Shown here: positions 21,544-60,715 of the stretch, in pieces | Layout of the letters: the number at the start of each line of letters is the position of its first letter | How positions within the stretch are numbered: position 1 is the first letter of the stretch | Origin: Diphasiastrum complanatum | Lineage: Eukaryota; Streptophyta; Lycopodiopsida; Lycopodiales; Lycopodiaceae | Length of the DNA: 64,000 nt | Assembly: GCA_029204225.1 (NCBI GenBank) | Contig: CM055099.1 | Span: 62,790,642-62,854,641 of the forward strand | Reading direction: 5' to 3' | The notes under the pieces: model-generated | What the model was told of the DNA's origin: nothing | The model's input: the letters and a program-made list of their open reading frames with translations, nothing else | Database searches by the model: none | Program-made: the position numbers and the translations under genes

Positions 21544-21610
21544 TGTAGGAAAGCAAGAGTCAAGTCACCAAGATCTAGTTATCAATCAATCTCCACAAGA
21601 AACAAGAGAG
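21544..21610 (-). repeat. Copia 3' LTR, distal 67 bp (separated part)
   Basis: TGTAGGAAAGCAAGAGTCAA.. to ..AACAAGAGAG matches 31459-31525 with one or two differences. The remaining LTR continues at 26101, after the inserted segment. Confidence 0.93.
21606..21610. other. Putative 5-bp target duplication (GAGAG), left copy
   Basis: GAGAG is the last LTR sequence before the insertion and is found again at 26096-26100, just before the LTR resumes with GCTGGGCGCC. The intact LTR has GAGAGAAGAGGCTGGG here, so the pre-insertion allele must have differed slightly, or the duplication is fortuitous in this purine-rich stretch. Confidence 0.6.
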
Positions 21611-21612
21611 TT

Positions 21613-21630
21613 CACTAATCATGATTAGTG
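21613..21630. repeat. 18-bp perfect palindrome at the insertion's left end
   Basis: CACTAATCATGATTAGTG is its own reverse complement and begins 2 bp inside the insertion border. A related inverted copy lies near the right end at 26004-26023. Confidence 0.8.
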
Positions 21631-21834
21631 TTAATGACGACACGTGTGCCAATAAAAGAATGGCAATTGAGCAGCAATGGCCCATATGACATGGCAAATT
21701 GTATGGTGTAGATTAAATTAAGTGTGGGACCACTAAGTACACCTCTAGCATTAACCCTACATTAACTCTACATTACTATTTTTGAACAATCGAGAGATCT
21801 TTTTGGAATGCTTGCTATAATTGGAATGGCACAC

Positions 21835-21841
21835 TATATAA
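21835..21841 (+). promoter_or_regulatory. TATA box candidate of the H3-like gene
   Basis: TATATAA (in CACTATATAAGGGTG) lies 167 bp upstream of the ATG at 22008 and within the insertion. A transcript starting about 30 bp downstream would have a roughly 140-nt leader. Confidence 0.55.
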
Positions 21842-21992
21842 GGGTGTGTGGGTCCCCATTTCGCCATTTCATCCTTAGAGTGAGAGAGTTTCCTTTATTT
21901 TTCATAGGTTGATATCATCCTTCTATGCTCACACAAGTGCAAATTAGTGTCATTATTGCAATTCCTATACATTAGTACTCTATTATATCCGC

Positions 21993-22004
21993 ATGGCGAC
22001 CTAG
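21993..22004 (+). promoter_or_regulatory. Minimal upstream ORF (Met-Ala-Thr-stop)
   Basis: ATGGCGACCTAG ends 3 nt before the ATG of the H3-like ORF. If transcribed, this four-codon uORF sits where it would force reinitiation or leaky scanning. Significance is inferred only. Confidence 0.4.
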
Positions 22005-22007
22005 TTT

Positions 22008-23369
22008 ATGGCACGTACGAAACAAACAGCCAGGAGGAATCCAAGGGAAACAGCGTTATTGCACCAAGCTGCTTTAGAAGCAATAGAAGCTCGGGAAAGG
22101 CGCTCGAGGACTAGGAGTAGGAGCAGAAGTAGCAGCATTGAACCTGTGGTGGTGGAAATGGACAGGAGTCAGGATGAGCAGGCAACAATAGATGATCCTG
22201 GGGAAGTTCCCATGGATTGTGAGCAGGTGCAGGGGCAGCAGCAGGTGGCAATGGAAGAGCTTGGGCAACAGCAAGCGGCAATGGATGAGCAGGGGCAGGA
22301 GCAGGGGCAGCAACAAACACCTCTGGATGAGCAGCATATGGCCAGAGCAGCAGAGGATGTCCTGCTGCATGATTTTGGTGTGAGGTCAGTGCTGGGAAGC
22401 CCCTCTCCAACACAGAGCCAGCGCGACGCCACTCAGGCTTTTCTAGACAGTGAGGTAGCTGCTTCCGGGCCGATTCCCAATGATTTCCTTGGGATCTTCG
22501 ACAATCACGGTCCTCAGGAACAGGTGCCTCTTGATGGCTTTGCAGTTGGTTCGTCAAGAGTCGGAGCAGCTTCAGGGGACTCCACTCCGACACAATCACT
22601 CGGACATGTGCAAGGGCCTGTAATGGGGCCCATGATGTCCTTGCTCGTCGGCTCGGACCAGACACCCCACGCAGAAGCCGTTGGGGAGGCTTCTCAGCAT
22701 GTCACACCCACATCACGGCCGAAAGCTAAAGCTGTTCATTGAAAGAGAGGTCGCTCGAAGCCTCGACGCCTTCCGCGGACCATTTCTCAAGCACAGCCGC
22801 AGCCGGAAGCTCCCCAGGTGCCTCGAGATCAATCAGCACCAGAGGTGCCGCAGGACCCCCCGCAGGACCCTCCCACGCAAGATGAGGCAGGACCTAGCCA
22901 GCCAGCAACACGGAAAAGGGCAGCCACACCACCAGCACCCTGCCAAGGCAAGGTCCTCAGAAGGATGCAGCCTCCGCAACCACGCCGCCGAAGGAAGAGC
23001 CGAATTCCGAACTGGTATAAGGAGATTCAAAAATACCAGAAATCCACGGAATTCCTCATACCGAGAGCTCCATTTGTCCGAACGATCAAGGAGATCATGG
23101 AAGAATTCTCCCTTGGGCTCAGAATTACGGGCGAGGCTGCTTCGGCTATCCAAGAGGCGGCAAAGATGTATCTAACAAATTTGTTTGAAGACTCATTTTT
23201 GTGTGTTGTCCATTGTAAGAGAGTTACTATACTTCCAAAGGACAAGTTGTTGGCAAAGAGGCTGAGACGTGAGAGGAATCAAAAACAATGTACTCCAAAT
23301 TTCGAGATAATAGTATTAGATCATTTTTGTCATCCAACTGTTGAATTATTGTGTGAATTCATTTTATGA
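22008..23369 (+). CDS. Histone H3-like protein with a very long tail; one in-frame TGA
   Basis: ATG at 22008 encodes MARTKQTAR, identical to the start of canonical H3, then RNPRE, so the K9 and S10 positions are lost. An RS-rich patch follows (RRSRTRSRSRSSS, near residue 35), then Gln/Glu-rich repeats (GQQQ.AM.E, residues 80-110), and Ser/Pro/Thr-Gln motifs. Codon 245 (22740-22742) is TGA; the same frame then stays open for 208 more codons, through basic patches (KRGRSKPRR, RKRAA, RRRRKSR) and a complete histone fold. The fold spans about residues 336-423: WYKEIQKYQKSTEFLI, APFVRTIKEI, EAASAIQEAAKMYL, NLFEDSFLC, HCKRVTILPKD. A 30-residue C-terminal extension ends at a TGA at 23367. Loop 1 has canonical H3 length, whereas LLIPRAPF resembles plant CENH3. 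The ORF is intronless. It is a divergent H3 variant, a mobile-element-captured H3, or a recent pseudogene. Confidence 0.72.
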
Positions 23370-23437
23370 TGAAATACAGTTTTCTGTGAATGTTTTTGGT
23401 TCACTAAATTTTCTATCAGAGTGTATATCAAATGCTG

Positions 23438-23690
23438 ATTTTCACGCAAGGGCGCGGACAGAGGCCGTTTGACTGGGTCAAACGGCCCTCCTCCGCGCCC
23501 TTGCGTGAAAATCACGCAAGGGCGCGGACAGAGGGAGTTTGACTGGGTCAACCGGCCCCCCTCCGCGCCCTTGCACACAAGGGCGCGGACAGAGGGCGTT
23601 TGAACAGGTCAAACGGCCCCCCTCCGCGCCCTTGCGTGCAAATCACGCCAGGGTGCGGAGGGGGGCCATTTGAAGTTCAAAATGGCACTT
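23438..23690. repeat. GC-rich array of three hairpins between convergent genes
   Basis: Three tandem units (about 23438-23522, 23521-23574, 23574-23642) each have arms AAGGGCGCGGA / TCCGCGCCCTT enclosing a second inverted pair (GTTTGAC..GTCAAAC-like). In unit 1 the outer arms extend to 21 bp. A degenerate fourth piece with a small stem (GCCATTT..AAATGGC) follows. GC content contrasts sharply with the AT-rich flanks. The array begins about 70 bp after the H3-like stop and lies near the end of the convergent gene, where it could act in termination, small-RNA production, or as a nested foldback element. Confidence 0.8.
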
Positions 23691-23889
23691 TAATGCCCTT
23701 AAATTTAGATGATTGGTAAAAATTTTCATAACCTACCATAATGAATGAAATTTTCGAACGCATGCAGTTTGAACTGAAATATTTTTGAAAAAAGATCACA
23801 TTTTCCTTTAAAATTCTTTTCCATTAGCCAGTGCTTCCAGTAGTGACTCTGATCTATTTTCTAGTCCTACTGTTGGCTTCATTAACTCC

Positions 23890-25708
23890 GATGCTAACTT
23901 AGCAGCATCAGCATGCTCCTCATATGGTCCAACCGCTGAGGCCAGAAGTAATCTGGACTCAAACCCCGGGCAGAAGTCTTGCAAGATAGCGCTCCTTCAT
24001 ACACAGTAGGCCTTTGGTGCAGTCTGTGGAAGTGGAGCATCTGCAAGATGCTTTGATAATGCTTTGCACTTGACCAGCTCAGTGGGCCCATCAGGACTAT
24101 ACTCATTGCTGAAACAGAAGATATAGTTGTCAGGGAATTGTCCAATGTAGTATGCCAGGGATGCATCTGACCTTCGCTCTGTTCGGTCCTCACGAGAACC
24201 TCCGCTCCTCATTGCAAAACTGTCAATCTATAAAACCACTGAAATATCTCTACCAAGGCATTGCTAAGACCTTTACCTCCACCATGTCTTGAATTTTTGA
24301 AATACGCAGCCTTGGCCCTGTAATGACTCTTCTCCATCCCTTGGGTATTCCAAATAGCCAATGATCCATATGTCTTAGAAAATCAAGGTCCATGAGCGTA
24401 CAAAATGTGCTGTTTGCAAAAGAATCTAATTAGTACATTTCACTTGGATAGAACTTACAAAGAAAAAATAAAGACAAAACACTGACCATATAATGAGTGA
24501 TGTGTGTTTCTCCCCATGCATCAATCATCAATCGAGTAAATGCTTGTACTTCCGTCTGATATCTATCGTAATCTTCCTCCCTCAAGTCTTTTTTTATTGA
24601 TAGTCAGTGACAAAGCATCAAATGCTTGCCACACCTTTGCACGTGTGGCAGCCATACAGGGATCCGAGCCAATATTTGTTGTGCATTCACACACTCTCTT
24701 CCAATACTCCCATATTATAATGAAAACGAACAATAGATCCCTTTTGCTTGCTGGATATTTTAAAAGTATCCTGAATATGGAAGAATCCACCTAATTCATT
24801 TTCTATAAATGAATTGCATTCTTGCTTTGTAGTTTGAAGCAATTTGTAAGCAGGTAATATTTGATGTCGTTTCAATCCGTTTTGGTCAGATTTTTTCATA
24901 AATTTTTTCAATGCTCTATATCCCTTTCGACTCACACCTCTTTGATCATATGCATAAACTATTTCGGTTGAAACCTAGTAGCAAGTCTTCTTGCAATATT
25001 TAAACGAAATGAATCACTCGTTTCATTTTCCACAATCTGCATCAAATATTTACCCTTCATGAATTGCTTCATATGTTTGGTGCTTTGGAAATGATCTCCG
25101 ACCATGTTATTCAAAAATTCTTTCGTCAATCTCTTGCATCTTTTACTAGCACTACCACCTGGTGTCAGAACATCTAGTTTGCGCCTTTTAGTATTGTCTT
25201 TTGATTGGTCATCCGTTGAGACTCGACACTTTCGCTGAAATCCATATAATATCTTTTGAAGACTAATGTTTAAAGATTGCAATTCTTCAAACTTTGTCAC
25301 AGATGTGGTGAGCTCTAATTTTGAATTTGTTATCTCTTTAGCCAATGTCTGATTTGTTTGTTGCAATGATTTTAATTGCTCATTCATGTATGTAATATGA
25401 ATGTTTGCACTATTCTCTAGCATTTCAGCTTGGATTCTTTGAGAATCCATAACTTGACAGCAGCCAAGAAGTCCGTTGGCACCATCACCAACGAACCTTA
25501 ACAAACTATGTACATCACAAAATTGAGGAGAAATATTGGTCGATGGATTAGGTGGATAAAAATCACCTTTTACCCATAGATCGATATTTTTCATTCCTTT
25601 TAACCTCCAACAATGCATTTCGTATGAGTTCAGATTAACACCCCATGCAGCTTTGATTGTGAAATACTCCTTCTCTAAGTTCACATGCAAGTGACATTTT
25701 GTTCCCAT
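23890..25708 (-). pseudogene. Unrecognised gene of the insertion: coiled-coil basic protein, frameshifted
   Basis: The first ATG at 25708 (MGTKCHLHVNLEKEYFTIKA) opens a frame to 24959. It contains a coiled coil (about 25430-25230, EQLKSLQQTNQTLAKEITNS) and a basic NLS-like patch (KRRKLDV, SKRCKRL). Apparent one-base slips continue the protein in other frames: VYAYDQRGVSRKGYRALKKF near 24950-24880, then MAATRAKVWQAFDALSL near 24650, then after an A-run DLREEDYDRYQTEVQAF and THITHYM to about 24490. A possible exon follows (LDFLRHMDHWLFGIPKGWRR, 24410-24290; donor-like GAG|GTAAAG), then ASLAYYIGQFPDNYIFCFSN (24150-24090). It may be a transposon-encoded or captured gene. I do not recognise the family, and frame damage suggests decay unless some gaps are introns. 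Confidence 0.5.
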
Positions 25709-26003
25709 CTTGAAAAAGTCCAAGGTCCAAGAAGATCTTCAAAAACGAATTTGGCTTAATGTTAGTTTGAAGTATGCATTTGAAATGAGCTAGACATGGA
25801 GTATTGTGTCATGCCTAGGTCCTATGTGTTGTACTTTTGGGATGACACTCAATGATAGGTTTTGTCCTACTCTAAGGTTACCCTAGTATAGTCTATGTAA
25901 CAAACCTACTAAAGTCTATGAAAATAGATCTTAGAGATAGCTCTTAACTCATGCTCACTCTATGTGGTAACCCATGGTAAAGGTGCCACGTAAAATGGAT
26001 TAG

Positions 26004-26023
26004 CATTACACTAATTATGATTA
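26004..26023. repeat. Inverted match to the left end of the insertion (TIR-like)
   Basis: CATTACACTAATTATGATTA reverse-complements to a near-match of 21616-21636. The stretch beyond it (26024-26095) would lie outside a TIR, so the termini are unresolved. Confidence 0.5.
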
Positions 26024-26047
26024 AGAAACTTGTTTAGGCAAGGAAGA

Positions 26048-26090
26048 GGCCCTTTTTGAGTTCAAAAACTTTTTGAGTTCAAAAAGGGCC
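26048..26090. repeat. Short hairpin at the insertion's right end
   Basis: GGCCCTTTTTGAGTTC.. and its inverse ..GAGTTCAAAAAGGGCC flank a 2-bp centre. The same stretch also holds a direct repeat TTTTTGAGTTCAAAAA. It ends 5 bp before the border. Confidence 0.7.
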
Positions 26091-26100
26091 CTAATGAGAG

Positions 26101-26480
26101 GCTGGGCGCCCAACTCTAGGAGAGGGCGAGAGAGAAAACAACAACAAGAGCAATGGAGAGCAATGCTTAGCCAAACTGTTCAAAATGGAATACACAATGA
26201 GCATCTAAGTACTCTACCTGGATGTGGCCAAATGCCACCAAACCCTAAGGTTAACCACTTACTAAATGTAGGGCACCCCCAAAAGACAAGATAGGGCCCC
26301 TAAACAAAATTAGACCTCTAAGGACCCACGAGTCAGTACATGACCAAAATTGGGTCCAGCTGAATTTAAGACAAACTTAAGATGGCCTAAATAACTAAAT
26401 ACCCTTGGTTACACAAATCTCGCCCTTTTGGGTCAAAGTAACCTATGGATTAACTTTAGCATAGTTATTTATTTCTAACA
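26101..26480 (-). repeat. Copia 3' LTR, proximal 380 bp
   Basis: GCTGGGCGCCCAACTCTAGG.. to ..TTATTTCTAACA matches 31534-31908 with roughly ten substitutions. The polypurine tract abuts it at 26481-26488. Confidence 0.93.
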
Positions 26481-26517: not shown

Positions 26518-29500
26518 CTATGTAACAAAACCAACACGTGGTATCAAATTTAAAGCTTTGCATAAAGCTTCAAATCTGACTCTAGGCAATGCCTTAGTGA
26601 AGAGGTCTTCAAGTAAACTGTCGCCATCATGAAGTCTCTCCCGAACAAAGTGATAATGGATCTCGATGTGCTTCGTCCTCACATGAAAAACAGGATTCCG
26701 TGCAATGGCAATAGCACTTTGACTATCACTCAAGATAAGAGTGGCTGAGGGCTCACCAAACTTCATGTCAACAAGTAGTCTTCTCAGCCATAAACACTCT
26801 GTTGTGGCTGAAAATATCGCTCTATATTCTGCCTCACTAGAAGAAGTAGCAACAGTGGGCTGCTTTTTTCTTGACCACGAAATTGCAGAATTTCCATAGA
26901 AAAAGCAATGTCCACTTGTAGAGCGTCTAGTGTCTTGATTTCCACCCCAATCCGATTCACTAGAACCAACTAAACATGCATCATCACAAGCAGGAAAAAC
27001 CAGTCCATGACTTCTTATTCCTTGAAAGATCCTCTTCAACGCTTTCCAATGTGATGTCATCGGGGCATGCATGAATTGACTCATGAGTGAGACACTATAA
27101 GAAATGTCCGTCTTGAATTACATAGGTGAATGAGACAACCAATAGCTTGACAATATAAAGTAGTATCAAATGGTTCACCATCACCTTGACTACTTAATTT
27201 CAATAGGTGTAGCAACCAGCTTGCAATCTTCCATCTTGAACCGCTTCAAAATCTGCCCAATGTAGCGTTCTTGAGAGATGAAAATTCCAGCCCCTTCTTG
27301 TACAAATTCAAGAACAAGATAAAAGTGCAATAGGCCTAAATTTGAGGTTTCAAAAACCATACCAAGATCAAGTATTACGGCATCAATCTGCTGCTCATTA
27401 CTTCCCGTAATAATAATATCATCAACATAAAGCAAAATAATAATGATATAATCTGAAGTATCCTTGACATAAAGAGTAGATTCGCGAGGACTATTAGTAA
27501 ACCCACGATCACAAAAGTAGGCATGTATCTTTTGATATCACATCCTCGGAGCTTGCTTCAGTCCATAAAGTGCCTTCTTGAGAAGACAAACTTTATCTTC
27601 TTGGCCTTCAACCAAAAAACCAGCAGGTTGTTGAAGGTACACTTCCTCATTGAGATCACCATTGAGGAATGCTATCTTTATGTCAAGTTGCCGCAAACGC
27701 CAACCAAAGTGGACAGCCAAAGAGGTTACTACCCTCACAGTAGTCATCCGAGCAGTAGGAGAAAAAGTCTCCTCATAATCAATCCCCTTTTGTTGAGAAT
27801 AGCCTTTGGCAACGAGCCTTGCCTTGTCCCTTTCAATGGTACCATCTACCTTATACTTGATTTTGTATACCCATTTAGAACCAATTGCCTTCTTCCCATG
27901 AGGAAGATCAACAAGAACCCAAATCGGGTTCTTCATAAGTGAGTCATACTCATCTTGCATCGCATCCTCCCAACATTTTACTCCCTTGGCCTGCTTATAA
28001 AAATCAGGTTCTTTCGCAATATCTCCATGAGATGTAAGAGCAAAATCTGAAAAATCAGCATAGTCCACTGATTTTGTAGAGGCACGTGTCTTTCCATCAT
28101 AAAATGAACTTACTTTGTTGTCCCGCAAAGTCGACAACAGCCACCGTGGCACTGTTTTGGGCTGTCCAACAGCCATGTCTCTTCTTACAATTTGCCGTCC
28201 AAGATCCTCCGACACCGCACTTGGCTGTCCAAGATCTTCCAAAACTAATCCTTGCTGTCCAACAGTTCCTGCAGGCTGATTATGAGCAACAATGGGCGGT
28301 TCTTGATGAACATTAGGCTCTAAACTTGATGAGGTGTTGGGCAGGTTGAAACTGGTTGATTGTTGCCCCTTATCTCTAGCAATAGAAGATGGTACCAAAT
28401 CTGGAAAAACTTCAACATTCACACTATGTGGGCTGTCCCCCTTCAAGATATGAGTTGGGGCCACATCCAATGAATTCTTTTCATCAAAATGCACATCACG
28501 ACTAACAATAATCTTGTTAGTGCTCAAATTGAACAGCCTATAGCCTTTGCTTTCACTACTATAGCCAACAAAAATGTGTTTAACTCCTTTATCCTCAAGT
28601 TTTTTACGAAGTTTATTTGGAACAAAAGCATAAGCCGTACAACCAAAAATGCGAAAGTGAGAGATTGTAGGCTTCTTTCCATACCAAACTTCATAAGGAG
28701 TTAATACTTTCAATGCTTTATTAGGACAACAATTGCTTATGTATGCTGCCGTTATAACCGCTTCAGCCCAAAACTTGTGAGGCAGCCCCTTTGCTTTGAG
28801 CATGCAATGGGCCATCTCCATAAGTGTGCGATTCTTTCGCTCGGCAACACCATTTTGTTGAGGCGTATAGGGAGTTGTCATTTGATGTAGAATTCCCTTT
28901 TCTCAAAGAAATGCACCGAACATATTCAAAGAATGCCCAAACTGATTTTCCACCATTGCTAGAAAATCTTTGAAACGTTGAAAAACTTTCGATTTAGCCT
29001 TCATAGGATAGATCCATGTAAAACGGGAAAAGTCATCAATAAAAGTCACAAAATAGATGCACTTTCCAATGGATTCGGTCCTCATTAGATCACAAACATC
29101 ACTATGAACCAAATCAAATTTATCAAGAACCCTTATAGTTCCATCAATTGGAAAAGGTTTCCTTTGAAACTTTCCAAGTATGCACCCCTCGCATACATGC
29201 CCTTCCGGCTGCTCAATAGTAGGAATGTCTTCTACCATATTAAATGTCTTCAGCTTCTTCAAACTTGCAAAGTTGAGATGCCCAAACCTTGCATGCCACA
29301 ATTCAACCAACTCCAATGATTGTGATGTAGAAGCAACAAGACATGTAGAGGGAATTCGTCGCTCATATGTATTCATAATGAATAAGCCAGCAGCATTGTT
29401 CCCAAAACAATAATCAAGAGTGATCTTTTAGGATCCTTGACAAGACACTTATCTTCTTTGAACTCAACTAGTCCTTGCTTCAAAATAGTTGAAACCGAAA

Positions 29501-30746
29501 GAAGATTCTTCTTGATTCCCGGAACATAAAGCACATTCTTAATGTACTTTTCTTTACCATTAGGCAGAACGATGGCTACAATTCCAATTCCATGAATAGA
29601 ATAAGATGCATCATCCGCACATTGTACCTTACTTCCATTTTGCACTTTCACTAATTTAGTGAATGCTTCTTTACGAGAAGTCATATGACGAGTAGCACCA
29701 CTATCAATCACCCATTCAATGGGCTGAAAACCAGCAACTTGCAAAACAGAATCTGAATTCCTCATAGATGTAGTAGTACTAGTAGAAGCAATATTAGACA
29801 CAAAAGCATAGTCTTGGTTGAAGAGATCACCACTAGCTTCGAGCTCTTGCTCCAAAGTAGCAAGTGAAGCACCAGTATCAATTCCTTTACTCTCCTCTTT
29901 CGCAAGCTTCTTCTTACAATCCTTGATGAAGTGCCCATACCTTTTGCAATAATGGCACTTCCCTTTCTTCTTTTGAGTGTTGACATTTTGACCTCCAACG
30001 GGCTTTTGCTCATCCTTGGAAGGAGGCTTCCCCTTTCCTTTTGACTTGCCTTTGCCCTTGCCTTTCGTGAAGAAAGCTTGATCTTGTTGAGTGTCACCCG
30101 CAAAGTTTTGCCTCCTTTGCTCCTCTTGAAGAAGCAGCCCAACAAGTTCATCAAAGGAGAGTTGTTGTCCCCTAAGAGAGATACTCAAAGATGAAACAAA
30201 TGGAAGATAAGATGAAGGTAATGAGTTGAGAGTAATGGAAGCAAATTGAGCATCCTCAATTATCTCATCAATATTGAGAAGCTCCTCACGAAGATCCTTG
30301 ATCTTCGTCAAGTGATTGGTCACTTGATCCCCTTCTTGCATCTTCAACAAAGAAAGCTGATTTCTAAGATACACCACTCTTGTTGAATTTTTTACTCTAT
30401 ACATAGTATAAAGTGTATCCCACGCACTTTTAGATGTCTTACAAGACCTAATATGAGGTAAGATAGATCTTTTCACAGCAAGAGCAACCATAGAATGTGC
30501 TTGTGCACCCCTTCTATCCCACTTCTTTTGTTCTTCCGAAGATGTAGAAGATGATGTTGATGATGATCATCCACGAGGTGTCGGAGGTGCCAAAGACGGA
30601 GGCCTTTCCTCATCACCATTGACCAAATCCCACAGCCCTTTCGCTATGAGAAGATTCTTCATCATGTAACTCCACAAGGAGTAGTTTGTGCCATCCAACC
30701 GATCTTCACTAAACAAAGAACTGATAGCTTCCGATTCTTTAGCCAT
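26518..30746 (-). pseudogene. Copia gag-pol polyprotein with several stops and one frameshift
   Basis: Start is MAKESEAISSLFSEDRLDGT at 30746. Gag includes the retrotrans_gag fold region (SAWDTLYTMYRVKNSTRVVY), a GKGK-rich linker and a CCHC knuckle CHYCKRYGHFIKDC (29957-29916). Protease motif WVIDSGATRHM follows, then the GAG-pre-integrase HARFGHLNFASLKKL, the integrase core and TPQQNGVAERKNRT (28870-28830), RT with KARLVAKGYSQQKGIDYEET and YVDDIIITGS (27430-27400), and RNase H (SSSEAEYRA, DSQSAIAIARNP, VRTKHIEIHYHFVRE), ending at 26518. Breaks: in-frame TGA at about 30567, a frameshift near 29400, and stops at about 28903, 27538 and 27190. Domain order PR-IN-RT-RH is copia. Otherwise nearly full length, so it was probably recently active but is now non-autonomous. 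Confidence 0.92.
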
Positions 30747-31458: not shown

Positions 31459-31908
31459 TGTAGGAAAGCAAGAGTCAAGTCACCAAGTTCTAGTTATCAA
31501 TCAATCTCCACAAGAAACAAGAGAGAAGAGGCTGGGCGCCCAACTCTAAGAGAGAGAGAGATAAAACAACAACAAGAGCAATGGAGAGCAATGCTTAGCC
31601 AAACTGTTCAAAATGGAATACACAATGAGCATCTAAGTACTCTACCTGGATGTGGCCAAATGCCACCAAACCCTAAGGTTAACCACTTACTAAATGTAGG
31701 GCACCCCCAAAAGACAAGATAGGGCCCCTAAACAAAATTAGACCCCTAAGGACCCACGAGTCAGTACATGACCAAAATTGGGTCCAACTGAACTTAAGAC
31801 AAACTTAAGATGGCCTAAATAACTAAATACCCATGGTTACACAAATCTCGACCTTTTGGGTCAAAGTAACCTATGGAATAACTTTAGCATAGTCATTTAT
31901 TTCTAACA
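31459..31908 (-). repeat. Copia 5' LTR (450 bp)
   Basis: TG..CA bounded in plus-strand reading (TGTAGGAAAG..TTTCTAACA). Intact, unlike its 3' partner, and retains GAGAGAAGAGGCTGGG where the partner is interrupted. Confidence 0.93.
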
Positions 31909-41454: not shown

Positions 41455-42000
41455 TCCTGCAGATTGGTGGAGGCTGTCCAGCGCCCTACCACCCATCACT
41501 TTCATCGATTTTCTCCGTCAACTTTCCTGCAGATTGGTGGAGGCTGTCCAGCGCCCTACCACCCATCACTTTCATCGATTTTTCTCCGTCATTTTTTGCA
41601 GATTGGTGGTGGCTGTCCAGTGCCCTACTGCCCATCACTTTCGACGATTTCTTCATCATTTTTTGCAGTTTTGGTGGAGGCTGTCCAGCGCCCTGCTAAC
41701 CCATCACTTTCGTCGATCGGCAGATTTTCATTGTTTTTTCAGATTTGGTAGCTGCTGTCCAGCGCCCTACTACCTCATCATTTTCGACACTTTTTGTCAG
41801 CGATTTGCTGTCCATTTTTTATATTGATTGGAGGCTTTCCAGCGCCCTACTACCGTCTCATTTTCAGTGGTTCTCTTCACCGACTTGCTGTCTGTTTCGG
41901 CTATTGATTGGAGGCTGTTCGGCGGCTTACTTCAGCACCTTTTTCAGCCTATTCTTCAGCATATTGTGGATCTTGGTAGTTGCTACCCAGTGCCCTATTG
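41455..42000 (+). repeat. ~60-bp leader minisatellite of gypsy copy B
   Basis: Seven or so tandem, increasingly degenerate copies of a unit containing GATTGGTGGAGGCTGTCCAG and GCCCTACCACCCATCACTTT start right after the PBS. The first two copies are almost identical, with later ones diverging. Apparent ORFs across it merely read the repeat in three frames. Confidence 0.85.
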
Positions 42001-43479: not shown

Positions 43480-45478
43480 GTCCTCCTACCGCTGATCTTT
43501 ACCATGAGGCTCTTACTCCTGATGATTCTGATGTTTATATCCAGATTCTTGATACTCCTGACCCACATTTTGTTGATGAGCCGGCTGACCCGCTTCCCGA
43601 TGATCCTGCTTCTGCCGCTTGCCATGCGCAACTTGCTTATGCTACTTGGGCTGGGCGTCCTGGTCCTCGTTCTATTCGGTTACATGTTCGCATTTTGGGG
43701 CGAGAGTATATTGCATTGGTGGATACGGGCAGTACACACTTATTTATTAGCAGTTACATTTCCACCAAGATTCGTGCTACACCTATTTCTGCTACACAGT
43801 CTCTCAGTGTCGAGGTTGCTAGCTCACATACTTTTATCAACTCTTAGATGTTTCAGGGCTTGGACTATAGCATTGGTGACTTCTCTGGATAGGCAGATTT
43901 CTATATTATTCCTTTGGAGCACTATGACATTATTCTTGGTGCAGATTGGTTATCATCACTTGGTACTGTTGTTGTGGATCTTTCTCAGCAGACATTGTCT
44001 TTTACACATGCTGGTCGGCATCATTTACTTTCTGGTATTGATTCCCAAGGTGACTATCAGTTGGTTACCCGGAAGCGGTTTATGCGTAGCCTGCCAAAGG
44101 CTCAGGGTGCAGCTATTTTTATCTTTCAGAGTACATCAGTTGCTGCTCCTCCTGCTCCATCCATGGGTCCTCTTCCTCAGGTGATTTCTGACTTATTACA
44201 TCGGTATTCTATGGTCTTTTCAGAACCTACGTCTCTGCCACCATTACGAGATGTCACCCACTATATTGATCTTATTCCTGGTGCTACCCCACCTTCTTGT
44301 GCTCCATATCGTATGTCTAAAGGTGAACGTGATGAGGCTCAGCTCCAAATTGCTTCCCTTTCACGTCAGGGCCTCATTGTTCCTAGCCATAGTCCTTTTG
44401 GTGCTCCTGTCCTCCTTGTTGCCAAAAAAGATGGAACCAAACGCCTTTGCATTGACTATCGTGCCTTAAACAAGCTGACTATCCGTACTCAGTATCCTAT
44501 ACCTCACATGGATGACCTTTTTGATCAGCTTGGCATTTCTTCCATCTTTTCCAAAATTGACCTACGTTCTGGATACTACCAAATTAGGATGCGTCCTTCT
44601 GATGAGCATAAGACTGCATTTCGTACTCATTTGGGTTTGTATGAATTTCGTGTTCTTCCATTTGGTGTTCAGAATGGTCCACCGACATTTCAAAATGCTA
44701 TGAATAATATTTTACGTCCTCTTTTAGGTGTTTGTGTCTTAGTTTATTTCGATGACATCCTTGTTTTTAGTACTTCTTTGTCTGATCATGTAAAACATCT
44801 ATCATCTGTGTTTGATTTACTTATTAAGCATCAACTGTTCGCCAAATTGTCCAAATGTTCTTTTGCCGTGGCTGAAATCGAGTTTTTGGGTTTTCTTATT
44901 TGTGGTGGACGTATTCGTCTTGATCCTCGGAAAGTTCAGGCTATTGAGAATTGGCCTGTCCCAACCGATGTTCATTCTGTTCGTATGTTTTTAGGTATGG
45001 CAACCCATCTTCGTCGTCCTGTTAAGTATTTTGCCATTGTGGCTGCTCCGCTTCATTCGTTACTAAAGAAGTCTCATACCTTTGTTTGGACTTCTGAGTG
45101 TCAAACTGCTTTTGATGCTTTACGTCATGCCAGCAACGCTATCAGACTTCTGTTGATCGTCATCACCGTCATGTTGAGTTTTAGGTTGGTGATATGGTTT
45201 ACCTCCGGTTACGCTTTGCACATCATCACTTTGTTCAGGGTCACGCTTCTACAGAGAAGCTTGCACCACGCTATTATGGGCCTTACTGTATCTTGGATCG
45301 CCTCAGCCCTTTTACATATCAGTTACAATTGCCTGATTCTACACGAGCTTGTGATATCTTTCATGTTAGCCTGTTACGAGCTGTCATTGAGGATGATGCT
45401 CCTCGCAATCTCACATTTCCTACAGAGCCAGAGCTGTTCCCTTTTTTTCCAGCTGCCATCCATCAGGTTCACCTTTAG
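43480..45478 (+). pseudogene. Gypsy copy B pol: protease and RT, RNase H and integrase core deleted
   Basis: The protease is out of frame around 43680-43740 (VDTGSTHLFIS-like) and continues to EHYDIILGADWLSSLG (43914 on). RT is intact: SPFGAPVLLVAKKDG, DYRALNKLTIRTQYPIPHMD, GYYQIRMRPSDEHKTAFRTH, LVYFDDILVFS (about 44740-44772). At about 45140 the frame leaves RNase H (FVWTSECQTAFDALRHA) and, with a shift, enters the integrase C-terminal module (GDMVYLRLRFAHHHF, KLAPRYYGPYCILDRL, ACDIFHVSLLRAVIEDD) up to 45478. RNase H and the integrase zinc finger and catalytic core are missing, a single internal deletion relative to copy A. Confidence 0.88.
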
Positions 45479-46700
45479 TATAGTCGACGTCGCAGGCAAG
45501 TTCACAGTGGGATGGTCATCCTCTTGAGGAGGCCACTTGGGAGCCTATTGATGTGTTTTATCATACACCATTATTGGCAGATCAGGCTCGAGCCCTCATG
45601 GCTTTAGCTCTTTCCTCTACTACAGATGTCATTGTAGATGTTCCCTCTGCTTCATGATTCGGCTAGCTATGACTATTCTTTATTGTAGTATTTGCTTAGT
45701 ACTTGCTTTACACAGTTATGATGCTTTTGGGGTATCTGTTGTGACAACTTATGATGGGTTAGACATAGCCTGGAGGACCACCAGAGATGTAGCTACATTG
45801 ATCATTCGCTTCACATCCTTAGCCAGTCGTAGAGAAGCTTTACAATGTAGAGTCAAACTATGCGGCACCTCCATATATGTGGATGATGATCTCACTTATA
45901 TTCCGGTTGAGGGGAGGCGTAAAGCCTTCCAGGATGCTCGACAGAATGGTAGACGGGTCATCTATCGTGATGGTCAGATACGATTTGTTGCTGGCACCCC
46001 TAGTAGCTCCTAGAGCTAGGGAATTGGAGCCCCCGGGATTGGGGGTATCCCGGGGCATTATCCATATTGTGATGGAACTCTGATGGCATTCACTCATCCT
46101 CTACAACAGGTGATCTGATTGACTTTATTACTGGACGAGACTTATTTTTTTTCATGGAGACTCACGAGAGTTAGGAGCGTGGACTACCCACTTTCCCGAG
46201 ATACATATGGGATTTAGTATATAGACCTGAGACTAGATCAGCTATTGGTTGTGGTTCTGGAGGGGTGGCTTGTCTCTATAGAGAGTCCCTCCAGGTGATT
46301 GAGTTCGTCAGGGACGAGGAGCATGTGGTATATCTGGACTCGTATTACAGGACGGGAGATTGGTTTGGACATTTTCATTGTTGCCTGCTATTTTCCTCTA
46401 GAGTCCTCTTCTTTTGTTGAGGGTGTTGGCTCACCTTAAATGGACCTCTCAATGGATACCATCAGATTTTCGGAGCGGGGGCATATTTTCCTTACTGTGC
46501 CGAACAGCTTCACGACAGACAGAGTTCCATGATTCTACAGACCAACTCCGAGTTCACGCCCTTGACAATGATAGCTTGGGGATTCAGATTACGTCATTCT
46601 TCTCTAGGAGACAACCACGCCAAGACCTCGAGTCTGATGATGACGACTACGACGATACACCACCTCACAGATATCAGAAATAGAGTATCACTCACAGTCA
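45479..46700 (+). mobile_element. Gypsy copy B 3' internal region with additional ORFs
   Basis: Follows pol. The first part (45540-45750) matches 31909-32219. Open frames at 45654-46013 (..CGTSIYVDDDLTYIPVEGRR..) and 46414-46683 (ending in an acidic DLESDDDDYDD stretch) have no recognisable family. They may belong to the element or to captured host sequence. No 3' LTR was found. Confidence 0.45.
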
Positions 46701-51913: not shown

Positions 51914-54900
51914 TTGATAGCATGCCAGTGGGGTTGCCGCCTAGACAGAACACGGAGCATCGTATTGAGCGGATGCATCGGAAAGTTGGTAACCAGTCAG
52001 TTAGAGTTATGGTTGATGATGGGGAAACCCATAATTTCATCAACTACACCTTGGTTAAAAAACTTAAACTTCCAGAAGTACCTAGTCAGCATAGGTACAG
52101 AGTTTCACTAGCTAAGGGTGAAGATAAGAAAATCTGGGAAACTATATTGTTCTCGGGAGAGATTGGCTCTACAGTTTAGGACCTTCCCTCCATAGTAATT
52201 ATTAGGAGAACACCCTCAGCTTTCAGCATAAAGGCCGAGAGATCCAGTTGCATGGGGAGCATGACGTTCCCAACAGTCCTATGGTCTGCAGTCAAAGCTC
52301 TGTCACCTAATCGGAGACGACGACCATCAGGTATTCTTATGTGACTTTCAGTTTATTCCTGAAGTTTCTATTTCCAATTTTTTACAGTAGAAAATCAATA
52401 AATTAGAAACTTTATTGTCTAAATTTAAAGATGTTTTTCTTGAAGATTTGCCGCATGGTTTGCCACCTAGCAGAGAGGTAGATCATGTAATAAACCTAGT
52501 ACCAAGAACAGCATCTGTTTCTAAACCTCCGTATTGGGTCAGCCGAACAGAGGATGAAGAAATAACTAGGCAATTAACATATTATCTTGGGAAAGGCAAA
52601 TTCAGACTAGTAGTTCACCATCGGCCTCACCAGTCCTTTTGGTGAAAAAGATTACAGAGCCCTCAATAAAGTCACAATTAAGAATAAGTACCCTATGCCT
52701 CGAGCAGACGAGTTGTTTGATCAACTCGACGGGGCTAAGTTTTTCAATAAAATAGACCTCAAATCGGGATATCATCAAGTCCGTATAAAGTCGGAAGATG
52801 TCCCGAAAACAGCTTTTAGGACTCGTCACGGTCATTATGAGTTTAAGGTGATGCCATTTGGGCTCACAAATGCTCTAGCTACCTTTATGACCTTGATGAA
52901 CAGTGTCCTCAGACCATACTTGGGTAAGTTTGTAGTCGTATTTTTAGATGACATCCTCGTCTATAGTAAAACGAGGAAGGAGCATCTAAAACACCTCAAA
53001 AAGGTATTTCAACTGCTCAGAAAGCATAAGCTTTATGCTAAAGAATCCAAGTGTTAATTCTTCGTGGAAGAAGTAGCATATTTGGGTCACATTATCTCGG
53101 CAGATGGGATTAAGATGGACCCGAATAAGGTCAAAGCCATACTCAGTTGGTTGAGACCTCAAAATATTTTGGAACTTCAAATCTTTCTTGGTTTGGCGGG
53201 ATATTACAGACGATTTGTCAAGGAATATGCTCAGATAGTAGTTCCCATGACAAATCTTCTTAAGGGGAAGGGAAAGGAGTTCATTTGAGAGTCCGCACAG
53301 CAGGAGAGCTTTGATGCTCTCAAAACAGCCTTAGCCACAGCACCAGCTTTAAAAGTCGTCGACCCCAATCAGCCATTTGTGGTCGAAACAGATGCTAGCG
53401 ACTTTGCAGTTGGTGCTGTGCTAACTCAGGGTGGACGACCAGTTGCATTCAAGAGTAAAAAACTCGAGCCAGCTCAGACTAGGTACAGTGCCTATGAAAA
53501 GGAACTCTTTTCTATAGTCCATGCCCTTAAGACTTGGAGGCATTATTTGTATGGTGCCAACTTTGAGGTCCTGACAGACCATGAAAGTTTCAGATACCTT
53601 TGCAATCAACCTGAGATTAGAGGTCGGAAAGCTCGTTGGGCAGAGTTGATGCAAGAGTTTGATATGTCTATTAGATATAGACAGGGGAAATTCAATACAG
53701 TAGCAGATGCCCTTAGTAGAATGCCTATGATAAACGAGCTGAGTTTTACTCATATTCGTAATGAGTTACTCGAGTCCTTGAAAGGGAAGTGCCAGCATGA
53801 TGCATTCTTCTCTACTATCTGGAACTCAGTCCAGAGCAGACAGTTACAGACTCCAGAGCCAATTCCCGGGGCTGGTGCCAGTTCATCCAAGAATACGGCA
53901 GCTTCCGTTGAGGATGATGATGAGTCCGGGTATATGTCAGATGACATTGAGGATTCTGAGCCTGTATTACCCAAGCAAACCCTAGTGGTTGAGGGTCAGT
54001 TGACTCAAGGATTCAAATGGAAACAATATTCCATTCAGGATGAGTACTTGCTCTATAGAGATAGAGTATGTGTCCCCAATTCAGAGGATTATAGGCAGCA
54101 TGTCCTATATGAATGTCATGACAATCCTAGTGCGGGACACCCAGGCATACAGAAGACCTATGAGCTTCTTCGTAGGAAATTTTCTGGCCCAGTATGAAAA
54201 AGGACGTCCAACAATATGTAACCAGTGCCAGAAATGTCAAGTAAATAAAGCAGAGCATTTAAAGGCAGGAGGGTTGTTGCAGCCCTTAGATATACCAGCT
54301 GGTAAATGGGAGAGTATCTCCATGGATTTTATAGTAGGCCTGCCTAAAACCCAAAAGGGTAATGACGCTACATGGGTCACAATTGACCGTCTGACCAAAA
54401 TGGCTCATTTTATTCCGACCAAAACAACCGTTAGAGCTCCAGAGTTAGCGAGGTTGTTTGTAGACGGTCTATTTAAATTGTACGGTCTACCCTCCGGCAT
54501 AGTCAGCGACCGGGACAGTAAGTTTAATGGAAATTTTTGGAAGGCAGTATTCCATCATCTCCATACTAAACTTAATATGAGTACCACCAACCATCCACAG
54601 ACGGACGGTCAAACAGAGAGGGTAAATCAGGTGCTGGAGGATATGCTTCGTGCATACGTCAGCAAGAAGCAGACTAATTGGGAGGAGTATCTCTCGATAT
54701 TAGAGTTTTCTTACAACAGTACCAAACATTCAGCTACGGGATACAGCCCATTTATGCTGATGTACAGTTTTCAGCCACGCTCACCCACAGCTATAGGGTT
54801 TAAACAAGAAAAAGTTGAAGCAGCCAGAAACTTTTTTAGAAGACCTAAACCAGATGATAGAACATGCTAAGCGTAGCATTAGGCAGTCCCAGGATCGAGC

Positions 54901-55722: not shown

Positions 55723-55744
55723 CAAAAGTGGATACCATCAAATA

Positions 55745-58140
55745 CGGATTCGAGATAAAGACGGCCTTCCGAACCCGTTTTGGTCATTATGAGTTTTGGT
55801 TATGCCATTTGGGTTAACCAATGCCCCAACCACGTTCATGATGCTCATGAACGATGTCTTGCAAGACTATATGGGCAAGTTTGTCGTCAATTTTATTGAT
55901 GATATATGGGTTTTTAGTAAAGCGGACGAGGAGCATGAGGTTCATCTCAAGACCGTATTGGGCAAGTTACAAGCTTCTGTCTTGTATGCCAATGCTTAGA
56001 AGACAAAGTTGTGTAAGACTCGTGTCGAGTATTTGGATCACGTAGTAACAGCTGAGGGTATTTCAGTTGACCCAGCCAAGGTGGTTGTGGTTAAGAAGTG
56101 GCCAAGGCCTGCCGATATATGCCAATTACAATCTTTCTTAAGTTTTTGTAAGTTCTACCGGCAGTTCGTTAGGAACTATTCCAAGGTAGTTGCTCCTTTG
56201 ATGGACCAGTTACGGAAAAACAGCATTGTAGATCGGTGGGTTGCTGAAGCTCATCACATGAGACCTTGATGTAGGCGCTGGCTACGGCTCCAGTTCTCAA
56301 GTTTGTTGATACCCAGAAACCGTTTGACCTAGAGACGGATGCAAATGGCATTGCCGTAAGTACAGTGTTGAGCCAAGATGGTATACCCGCACAGGAGTAA
56401 GAGCTATATGTGAGTACATGCGCTCAAGGTGTGGAGACATTATTTATATGGTGCCAAGTTTTTTGTGTACACAGATCATTATACTTTAAAGTATTTTGCA
56501 CTCAGCCAGATTTGTAAGGCCGCCAAGCTCGGTTGGCCGAGCTGATGCAGGAATTTCATTTGGAACTTCGCTTCCGAAGAGGGAAGGAAAATGTGGTCGT
56601 TGATGCACTAGCATTGGTACTGCATCAGATGAGCCTTGCCTGTAGTTGACAGTGATCTCATGGAGGAGATCAAGAGGGCTCAGCAAAAAGGACCCACATT
56701 GTCAGTGTATGTAGCCTATGCATGCAAGTTAGTCGACCAAGCGGAAGAGTCAGCCTCGCCTGTCGCTTCCGTAGAGGAACACACCAGTACTTATTTGACA
56801 TACACCGTGAAGGAAGGTATGTAGTTGAGGAAACGGGAGTATTTGTGCCAAACGTGAAGGATCTTCATCGTAAGATACTTCATGAATGCCATGATAGTCC
56901 CTGTACAGGGCACCCTGGTATTGATAAGACTAGTGAGCTTTTAAGAAGGCATTTTTTTTGGCCACGATTGCAGCGGGATGTAAGAGAGTACGTCCAGCGT
57001 TGCACGGCTTGTCAGGTGAACAAGGTCGACAGAGTAAGTCCTCTGGGCTTGCTACATCCACTTGAGATACCTATAGGAAGGTGGGAAAGCATCTCTATGG
57101 ATTTTATTGTTAGGCTACCCAAGACCCAGAATGGATTCAATTCTGTTATGGTAGTGGTAGACAGGTTTTCCAAGATGGCTCATTTCATCACAACAACCAA
57201 GAAGGTCACAGCTCCACAAGTGGCTGAGTTGTTTATTCAAAATATTGTCAGGTTACATGGTCTTCCGAAGTCCATAGTTTTTGACAGGGATCCCAAGTTT
57301 ACGGGAAATTTTTGGATTGAGGTGTTCGCCAAGCTGGGAACACAATTGTGGATAAGTGGCTCTGAGCATCCTCAGACGGATGGTCAAACAGAGCGAGTAA
57401 ATCCGATCTTGGAAGATATGCTTAGGGCCTATGTTAGTAGTACGCAAACAGACTGGGTAAAGCATTTACCGCTATTGGAGTTCGCGTACAATGATAAGAG
57501 ACATGCGTCCACTGGATTGAGTCCATTTGAGCTCAGTTATGGTTTCAGACCATTGAGTCCTACAATCATTGGGATTCCACATAGGGTACCTAGTGTTGTA
57601 GAGTTTTTGGCTCAATTGCAGCAGAAGCTAGAGTTGGCACAAGATAACTTGTCCAAAGCTGTAGCTAGGGCAAAGAGTTATGCTCATGAGAACCGTACCT
57701 ATCGAGAATTTGAGAATGGAGATTGGGTGTATATACTACTCCCTTCGAAGTCGAAGGTGCTACGCACAGGAAAGTGCGCCGAGTTATCTCCTAGGTATTG
57801 TGGACCATGGTTGATTATTAAGAAGGTGAGCCAAGTAGCTTATAAGCTACAGCTACTTGTGGGATGCAAGGTGCATCCAGTATTTCATGTTAGCAAACTG
57901 AAGAAATGTTTGCACGATGGCGATAGCCTGGTGGAAAGTCTAGTGTCTCTAGAGGAGAAAGACACCACAGGTTATGGGCCAGATAGAATCCTAGATCAAA
58001 GGGAGCGACGAGTGCGGAATCGTCTTCTTCAAGAGTATCTAGTAACTTGAAAAGGGCATCCGTTGTCAGATGCTACCTGGGAGACGCGACAGGCGTTGTA
58101 GAAGTCTTACCTAGAGTTTGTCATCGAGGACCGATGACTT
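55745..58140 (+). pseudogene. Gypsy D pol (RT to chromodomain)
   Basis: [31 protein letters not shown] (canonical IDDILVYS altered), then RVEYLDHVVTAEGISVDPAK and [20 protein letters not shown]. RNase H is badly broken (56280-56620). Integrase is a long open stretch at about 56820-58050: HECHDSPCTGHPGIDKTSEL, CTACQVNKVD, MDFIVRLPKTQ, VVDRFSKMAHFITTTKKVTA, FDRDPKFTGNFW, HPQTDGQTERVNPILEDMLR, LSPRYCGPWLIIKKVSQVAY. The chromodomain part has stops (EYLVT-stop-KGHPLSDATWETRQAL-stop). Catalytic D, D and E are present in the integrase. Confidence 0.9.
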
Positions 58141-58609: not shown

Positions 58610-60715
58610 CTACAAGAGGAAGAGGAATTGCGGAAGATGTTGGAGGAATACCTCAGGTTGGGGTAAAAGGTTCGTCCTAGTTATTCACCTTTCGCCTCCC
58701 CCATTTTGTTGGTTAAGAAAAAGGATGGTAGTTTTCGGATGTGCGCGGATTACAGGGGATTGAATAAAATCACTGCAAAGCACAGATATACGATGCCCGG
58801 GAGTGATGATCTACTGGATGCGTTGCAGGGAGCAACCATTTTCAGTAAGATAAATCTCAAAAGTGGGTATTATGAGATACGGATTCGTGAGGAAGACGTC
58901 CAGAAGACGGCCTTCCAAACCCGTTTTCGACATTATGAGTTCTTGGTTATGTCGTTTGGGTTAACCAATGCACCCACCATGTTCATGATGCTCATGAACG
59001 ATATCCTGCGTGATTATATGGGCAAGTTTATGGTCAATTTTATTGACAACATACTCATCTACAGTAAGACGATGGTGGAGCATGAAGGTCATCTCCAAAC
59101 CGTATTTGGCAAGCTACAAGAAATAGTCCTCTACGCCAATGCTTAGAGGACTGAGTTGTGTAAGACTCGTGTCAAGTATTTGGGTCACGTAGTGATGGCA
59201 GAGGGTATTTATGTTGACCCCGCCAACGTGGTTGTGGTCAATAAGTGGCCAGGCCAATATTTGTCAGTTACAGTCTTTCCTAGGCTTTTGCAAGTTCTAC
59301 CGACGGTTTGTTAGGAACTATTCCAAGGTAGCTGCTCCTTTAACGGATCAGTTACAGAATAACAACAATGTGGTTTGCTGGGATGCTGAGGCTCTCAGCA
59401 TAATTTTGAAATCTTGAAGGAGGCTATTGCAACAACCCAAATACTCAAGATTGTTGATACCCAGAAAGAGAAACCTTTCAACCTTGAGACGGATGCTAGT
59501 GGCATTGCCGTGGGTGCAGTGTTGAGTCAGGAAGGTAGACCAGTAGCCTTTGAAAACAAGAAATTGACGCCAATGCAACAAAAATATCCCACACATTAGC
59601 AAGAGCTATATGCGATCATATATGTGCTCAAGGTGTGGTGACATTATCTATATGGCACCAAATTTTATATGTACACTGACCATCATACTTTGAAGTACTT
59701 ATGCAGTCAGCCAGATTTGGAGGGCCACTAGGCTCGGTGGGCCGAGCCGATGCAGGAATTTCATTTGAAAATTTGCTTCCGAAGAGGGAAGGAAAATGTG
59801 GTCGCTAATGCACTATCTTGGATACTGCATGAGATGAGCTTTACTGTAGTTGACAGTGATCTCATGGAGGAGATCAAGAGAGCTCAGCAGAGCGACAGCG
59901 TGTGTGGCCTAGTGCGCGCAAGGTAGTCAACCAAGCGGAAGAGTCAGTCGAGGCTGTCGCTTCCGTAGAGGCACACACCAATATCTAACATACACCTTGA
60001 AGGATGGTATGTTATTGAGAAACGGAAAGGTTTTCATGCTAGACGTGAAGGATCTTCTTCGTAAGATACTTCATGAATGCCATGATAGTCCCTGCGTAGG
60101 GGTTGGGCACCCGGGTATTGATAAGACTAGTGAACTAGTCGGAAGGCATTATTTCTAGCCACAATTGCAACGAGACGTCAAAGAGTACATCTAGCGTTGC
60201 ATGGTTTGTCAGGTGAACAAGGCCGAGCGGGTAAGTCCTCCGGGCTTACTGCATCCACTGGAGATTCCTGCAAGAAGGTGGGAATGAATCATTGTTGGGC
60301 TAGCCATGACCCAGATGGGATTGAACTCCCTCATCATAGTGTAGACATGTTTTCCAAGATGGCTCACTTCATCACAACGACCAAGAAGCGCAAGTTGCCG
60401 AGTTATTTATCTAGAATGTCATCAGGTTGCCATTGTGTCTGACAAAGATCCCAAGTTTACGGGAAATTTTTGGAACATAGTTGCGGATGAGTAGTTCTGA
60501 GCATCCTCAGACGGATGGCCAGACAAAGTGAGTGAACTAGATCTTGGAAGATATGCTTGGGGCATATGTTAGTAGTACACAAACAGATTGGGTAAAGCAT
60601 TTACCACTATTGGGGTTGGCATACAATGATAAGAGACATGCATCCACTGGATTGAGTCCATTTGAGCTCAATTATGGTTTCAGGCTGCTGAGTTCTACAA
60701 TCATAGGGATCTTGC
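58610..60715 (+). pseudogene. Gypsy E pol (RT, RNase H, integrase core)
   Basis: RT: SPFASPILLVKKKDGSFRMC, NKITAKHRYTMPGSDDLLDA, SGYYEIRIREEDVQKTAFQT, FIDNILIYS, where the second catalytic Asp of the xxDD box is Asn. Connection: [20 protein letters not shown]. RNase H: LETDASGIAVGAVLSQEGRP. Integrase fragments: HECHDSPC..GHPGIDKTSE, CMVCQVNKAE, MFSKMAHFITTTKKRKLPSY, then SSEHPQTDGQTK and a last piece MLGAYVSSTQTDWVKHLPLL to 60715. Stops occur at about 58664, 59146 and 59414 and in the integrase. Confidence 0.88.

Follow-up and report, generated by a model that had tools for sequence, protein, structure and literature searches.

The H3-like gene at 22008-23369 of the window (the whole 64-kb stretch of DNA analysed here) probably lies in a defunct, internally deleted member of a family of DNA transposons that has an H3 variant gene of its own. 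We are highly confident that this H3 is element-borne and was once under selection. In two anciently diverged subfamilies, here called A and B, the H3 is placed beside at least three conserved element genes, and both its fold and its tail motifs are conserved. The host genome of the H3-carrying lineage is probably that of a non-seed plant.

The broken H3 gene and its nested insertion

The frame from 22008 opens with MARTKQTARRNPRETALLHQ, and a histone fold lies about 330 residues downstream. A first, sequence-only reading of this DNA had pointed to a canonical H3 start (MARTKQTAR as the first nine residues) and, some 330 residues on in the same frame, to the ordered H3 landmarks YQKSTE, LFED..LC, HCKRVTI and PKD; both are present. 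The single open frame of 453 codons that it described is absent, as a TGA at 22740-22742 (codon 245) divides the sequence into 244 and 208 codons. In L031, an uninterrupted copy, this position holds a sense codon. An intron around the TGA was considered and rejected by eye, the region being GC-rich and L031 reading straight through it. The window copy is broken and is therefore not itself an exceptional protein. The HMM search suggested along with the first reading gave 97.5 bits against the Pfam Histone family PF00125 for the second half of the frame, 22743-23366 (cut-off 26.4, E 8.4e-28), with the match spanning residues 57-175 of that half; P0007 and P0008 score 101 and 85 bits against the same cut-off of 26.4. 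The best PDB matches to the second half are H3.1 chains (E about 1e-26), and the best 60 of the 176 matched PDB sequences are all named H3. Among first-order random sequences, open runs matching the lengths of the two halves were found in 2/2000 and 0/2000. The last 29 residues (23280-23366), after RRERN, are read-through in the window copy: a stop stands right after the RRERN position in 60 of the 66 distinct loci read, and is missing in L001 (the window copy), L016, L023, L033, L053 and L072. The parts of the gene and its surroundings are as follows.

21832..21901, plus strand: putative H3 promoter and 5' leader, with TATATAA at 21835-21841 (sequence; conservation in B copies)
22008..22739, plus strand: H3 tail, first 244 codons, start MARTKQTARR (sequence)
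22740..22742, plus strand: in-frame TGA that breaks the window copy (sequence; comparison with L031)
22743..22985, plus strand: remaining H3 tail, a P/R-rich linker (sequence)
22986..23279, plus strand: H3 histone fold with flanks, RRRKSR...RRERN, 98 codons (Pfam, PDB, alignment of copies)
23280..23369, plus strand: read-through extension including the later TGA (stop position in 60/66 loci)
23436..23673, unstranded: GC-rich tandem and inverted repeats with strong hairpins (folding; comparison of copies)

The promoter stretch is 80-81% identical in L034, L035 and L036 and falls within a 72% block in L033. The GC-rich repeats lie directly 3' of the H3, both in the window and in other copies from A and B; their hairpins are very stable (DNA z-score -15.5) and perhaps act as a terminator or a silencing trigger.

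The gene's surroundings show how it came to be at this locus. The window contains a minus-strand copia element, with gag and pol domains at 27538-30491. Its intact LTR at 31459-31908 is matched in the window self-BLAST by 21544-21610 together with 26097-26480, and because the match falls into two separated parts, the H3 gene sits in a 4486-bp insertion, at 21611-26096, within the second LTR of this copia element. The filled site reads AACAAGAGAG|...|AGAGGCTGGG and the empty site AACAAGAGAGAAGAGGCTGGG. No clear target-site duplication was seen at this insertion; AGAG stands on both sides, within a GA-rich run. The inserted copy has kept its right terminus, has lost its left terminal repeat and is internally deleted.

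21544..21610, unstranded: left fragment of the interrupted copia LTR (98.5% identity to 31459-31525)
21611..26096, unstranded: H3-carrying mobile element copy of subfamily A, 4486 bp (self-BLAST; full-length copies)
26047..26096, unstranded: palindromic repeat at the right terminus, in which one unit is duplicated, with the end GGGCCCTAATG (full-length copies)
26097..26480, unstranded: right fragment of the interrupted copia LTR (96.9% identity to 31527-31908)
31459..31908, unstranded: uninterrupted partner LTR, the empty site (self-BLAST)

Copies, ends and genes of the element family

Using the 208-residue half as query, we searched the window's own assembly (1,744,706,496 bases in 5176 contigs). 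From 6444 first-look candidates, 150 matches including the window copy were scored (E up to 5.6e-36), a figure that is not a copy number, the remaining candidates being unscored. Relatives of the window H3 element are dispersed over many contigs, and the loci read form the two subfamilies, with the window copy belonging to A. The A loci are 81-94% identical to it in blocks of at least 1 kb, and four compared pairs among the B loci L033-L036 are about 90-98% identical over long blocks.

Two B copies, each pieced together with its flanks from separate stretches (E1 from L038, L034 and L037; E2 from L040, L035 and L039), can be aligned along some 8.5 and 8.7 kb. Both terminate in inverted repeats of 36-37 bp, CATTAGGGCCCTTTTTGGACTCAAAAAGGGCCTCTT; every one of these repeats is also a palindrome, and the two ends of E1 and E2 are 97-100% identical. 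Among ten further B copies, the left end was found in seven and the right end in four. L073 diverges immediately past its terminal repeat, and the left ends of L075 and L077 have an identical flank, so these two are not independent. Terminal inverted repeats are present on independent copies, as in TIR DNA transposons. A target-site duplication was seen in none of the four copies with both ends read (E1, E2, L085/L086 and L089/L090), which is unusual for a TIR element. A T follows the right end in 5 of the 8 right ends read, the exceptions being L086, L032 and the window. The first reading had offered, as one of two explanations, an H3 reshaped after capture by a mobile segment, and this is supported by the nested insertion, the dispersed family and the defined ends; the other, a lineage-specific H3 variant of the host, is unsupported at the window locus. 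A processed retrocopy was also rejected, as no poly-A tail is visible by eye and the defined TIR ends argue against it.

Apart from the H3, E1 and E2 carry at least three unclassified genes. P0004, P0005 and P0006 are on the strand opposite the H3, P0005 and P0006 being perhaps one protein, and P0009 lies upstream on the same strand as the H3. All four are recognisable across the subfamilies at 53-83% protein identity, with pN/pS between subfamilies of 0.19-0.58 (raw ratios without a neutral control). None of the non-histone element ORFs scanned has a Pfam family above cut-off. P0005 contains EWHLAADLKTLK...CIYC, which by eye looks like part of a DDE-type transposase; the AlphaFold model of the P0005 exon (pLDDT 39.5) was too poor for a structure search. 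Two established classes were considered and rejected: for hAT, no hAT transposase domain was found in the ORFs scanned and an 8-bp target-site duplication in 0/4 copies; for Helitron, no Rep/helicase domain was found in the ORFs scanned, and the ends are CATTAG...CTAATG, not 5'-TC...CTRR-3'. In the window copy P0005 and P0006 persist as remnants.

24463..24712, minus strand: P0005 remnant, C-terminal part, with EWHLAADLKTLK and the CxxC stretch missing (tblastn, 68-83% identity)
24708..25384, minus strand: P0006 remnant, overlapping the ORF at 24959-25723 (tblastn, 54-60% identity)
24959..25723, minus strand: ORF of 254 aa without a Pfam family above cut-off (ORF list, Pfam)

The last of these probably represents the beginning of the minus-strand protein to which the P0006 remnant belongs. 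Because the EWHLAADLKTLK stretch is missing, the window copy is probably non-autonomous. The block 24230-24713 is present, absent or replaced among A copies, which suggests internal deletion or recombination between elements.

Constraint on the element H3 and its relation to other histones

A whole H3 frame, from the start to RRERN, is present in 5 of the 66 distinct loci read: L031 (420 aa), L036 (412), L045 (394), L042 (361) and L041 (358). Ahead of the 98-residue fold block these have tails of 322, 314, 296, 263 and 260 residues, respectively. The exceptional tail length claimed in the first reading therefore does not hold for the broken window copy, but is found elsewhere, in these five uninterrupted copies. 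The frame of L033 is also open but continues beyond RRERN. The full frame is absent in the other 61 loci, but a number of the 1.43-kb stretches may lack their beginning. E1 (in L034) and E2 (in L035), the only copies read end to end, both have a stop within the fold, so that both ends and a whole H3 were never seen together in one copy.

Between L031 and L036, the 98 codons of the fold show 105 differences in 294 bases and 32 in 98 residues, giving a pS of 0.871, a pN of 0.204 and a pN/pS of 0.234. None of 500 neutral simulations gave a ratio this low (mean 0.825, minimum 0.505). The same pattern appears when the stop-free folds of 18 A copies are compared with those of 29 B copies: over the 522 pairs, median pS is 0.868 and median pN 0.217. 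Within subfamilies, median omega is 0.395 for A (149 of 153 pairs) and 0.411 for B (401 of 406 pairs), values lowered by the choice of loci for high score and long frames; 16 of the 64 anchored folds, which contain stops, and L030 were left out before these counts, and L044 and L072 have no fold anchor. The pS between subfamilies (L031/L032 against L033-L036) is 0.87 for the H3 fold, higher than the 0.42-0.69 of the neighbouring element genes; the H3 module may have a greater age, change faster or pass from one element to another.

The tail is also shared between the subfamilies, which have in common the blocks ARTKQTA, PR.T.LLH..AL, FLD, TPT.S, MMSLLVG and LRRMQPP.P. With 43% identity and a pN/pS of 0.49 in the best local A/B alignment (286 codons), it is less constrained than the fold. 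Saturated synonymous sites in the fold and recurring tail motifs, both across the two subfamilies, indicate that tail and fold are one gene; a chance joining of unrelated frames, named in the first reading as what would speak against it, was not seen, since tail motifs and fold recur jointly. ARTKQTAR is retained in L031, L036 and L045, while L041 and L042, which are much alike, begin with MARMKQMAR, so the ARTK motif is not invariant. Position 9 is R (in A) or D (in B) in all five complete copies, so that none has K9, and no K27 or K36 context was found in the tail by eye. In B copies (e.g. L036:4458-5708) an in-frame ATG lies five codons upstream, giving MSEEM-ARTKQ, and ARTK may thus not be the N-terminus in these; in the A copy L031 a stop lies two codons ahead of MARTKQ.

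The fold shares 56% of its residues with Arabidopsis H3.1 (48/86) and 49% with Arabidopsis CENH3 (40/82). It contains LIPxAPFVR and RxTxEA, which resemble plant CENH3. The element folds align to H3 without a loop-1 insertion, whereas AtCENH3, ZmCENH3 and human CENP-A carry a longer loop 1. In a small tree that compared them with reference H3 and CENH3 sequences, the element H3s form a clade with support 96 and the plant CENH3s one with 97; P0001 joins the element H3s at 81, and the other deep nodes have 55-81. A host CENH3 with a long tail was rejected for the window locus on the nested insertion and the missing loop-1 insertion. The equivalents of the H3 contact residues H113, R116, D123 and R83 are kept in the complete copies by eye.

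P0001 and P0002 come from a protein search in which 8000 candidates were scored; further protein searches gave no matches. P0001 (274 aa, ENA source) starts with MARTKQTAKK and, like the element H3s, has RAPFxRTxKE, AIQEAAE, VTILPxD and RLRRxxN. Its tail of about 175 residues is shorter than theirs, and it may be a relative elsewhere. P0002 (694 aa, on a different ENA contig) begins with roughly 550 unrelated residues, followed by an H3-like fold whose loop 1 is longer by about ten residues. Scans of viral contigs with single proteins, a method limited to close relatives, gave no match for one element exon, P0001 or the window H3.

Possible roles, known systems and the rest of the window

Few proteins are as conserved as histones, which as a rule belong to the host. 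We tentatively propose an anti-silencing role for the element H3, because its tail lacks K9. Uninterrupted copies would be transcribed from their own TATA promoter, and the product would pair with host H4 through its complete fold and enter nucleosomes; the complete fold and the retained contact residues argue for this last step. With no K9 and, by eye, no K27/K36 context, the chromatin of the element could then resist heterochromatic marking. It is more doubtful that this transposon lineage has relied over a very long period on a histone of its own, with an H3 tail of ~260-320 residues making a private nucleosome beyond the reach of host K9/K27 methylation. If true, the parasite would evade silencing by bringing some of its own chromatin with it. 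A plant transposon that maintains a divergent H3 under purifying selection would represent a new counter-silencing strategy, and it would make testable whether a transposon can evade H3K9 methylation by a histone swap.

A function in transposition, for example in compacting the DNA intermediate or in recruiting the transposase to chromatin, is nearly as likely as the anti-silencing role, though we would not count on it. The H3 adjoins conserved element genes, and the conserved tail blocks MMSLLVG and LRRMQPP, which were not recognised from other H3 tails, suggest the binding of a partner; the loss of K9 is only suggestive in separating the two roles. It is improbable that the H3 is an unused passenger, i.e. 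a host H3 captured by transduplication, as happened with hAT elements in fungi, and amplified, with the copies now drifting debris. Such a history would account for the many loci without a complete frame (61/66) and for the broken H3 in both full-length elements, and the cited passages on Pseudocercospora fijiensis describe captured copies that were inactivated, the original alone remaining intact (PMC6710886). However, it is at odds with a fold pN/pS of 0.234 at a pS of 0.87 between A and B, a ratio as low as this being reached in 0/500 neutral simulations, with the tail motifs common to both subfamilies, and with uninterrupted frames of 358-420 aa in each of them.

Spread of a host H3 or CENH3-like gene by segmental duplication, with no transposon involved, is very unlikely. 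The folds of L005 and L006 are identical and those of L003 and L004 nearly so, the left flanks of L075 and L077 match, and LIPxAPFVR and RxTxEA resemble plant CENH3; yet the gene sits within an LTR whose empty partner is known, and the TIR ends shared by several copies with differing flanks largely refute such an origin, while the missing loop-1 insertion and, less clearly, the separate clades in the small tree of reference sequences speak against a CENH3-like host gene. We give as little credence to an integrated DNA virus carrying a histone: such viruses exist, and palindromic terminal repeats with no target-site duplication (0/4) would suit one, but the size of 8.5-8.7 kb, the absence of any Pfam family above cut-off in the non-histone ORFs scanned and the empty viral-contig scans for close relatives of the H3, P0001 and one element exon do not.

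For an H3 gene within a DNA transposon, the nearest known cases are fungal. The cited passages on Pyrenophora tritici-repentis describe a hAT element with TIRs that carries, besides a transposase gene and an ORF of unknown function, a gene for an H3-like protein (H3L), present in 26 nearly identical copies in elements of 5.6 and 2.3 kb; H3L fits neither H3 nor CENH3, has tail insertions and is represented by ESTs (PMC3538342). Our element is likewise a TIR DNA transposon with an H3-like gene. As far as that description goes, it differs in residing in a plant-like genome, in the absence of a detected hAT domain and of a visible target-site duplication, in its size (8.5-8.7 kb), in H3 tails of 260-322 residues, and in comprising two subfamilies of ancient divergence, in which the fold is constrained. 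In Pseudocercospora fijiensis and its relatives, according to the passages cited, a hAT element with 8-bp target-site duplications and 20-bp TIRs captured an H3, giving hundreds of intronless H3-like copies, 90% of them truncated to 71-100 aa and inactivated by RIP (PMC6710886). In contrast to what is reported there, some complete H3 frames persist in our family and no target-site duplication was seen.

Accessory genes of other kinds are also reported from DNA transposons. Fungal elements are reported to carry TET/JBP dioxygenases (PMC12730594), and Arabidopsis VANDAL elements to encode VANC anti-silencing proteins that are sequence-specific (PMC10398659, PMC5735166). The likeness would be an accessory gene with which a DNA transposon counters epigenetic silencing, as we infer for the H3; on these accounts TET/JBP is a dioxygenase and VANC a sequence-specific protein, whereas the accessory gene here is a core histone variant. 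No plant case of a transposon-borne H3 appeared in the open-licence literature among the matches listed, and a recurrence apart from the fungal hAT/H3 cases would point to convergence.

Elsewhere in the window, a reverse transcriptase frame of 537 codons at 43914-45527 (RVT_1, 2.1e-34) is probably a LINE, and tandem arrays of units of about 69-80 bp lie upstream of it at 41458-41918. Gypsy-like frames occur at 53379-54870, and the segments 55723-57575 and 58858-60710 are 76% identical to each other, the first overlapping a gypsy-like integrase frame at 56722-58050.
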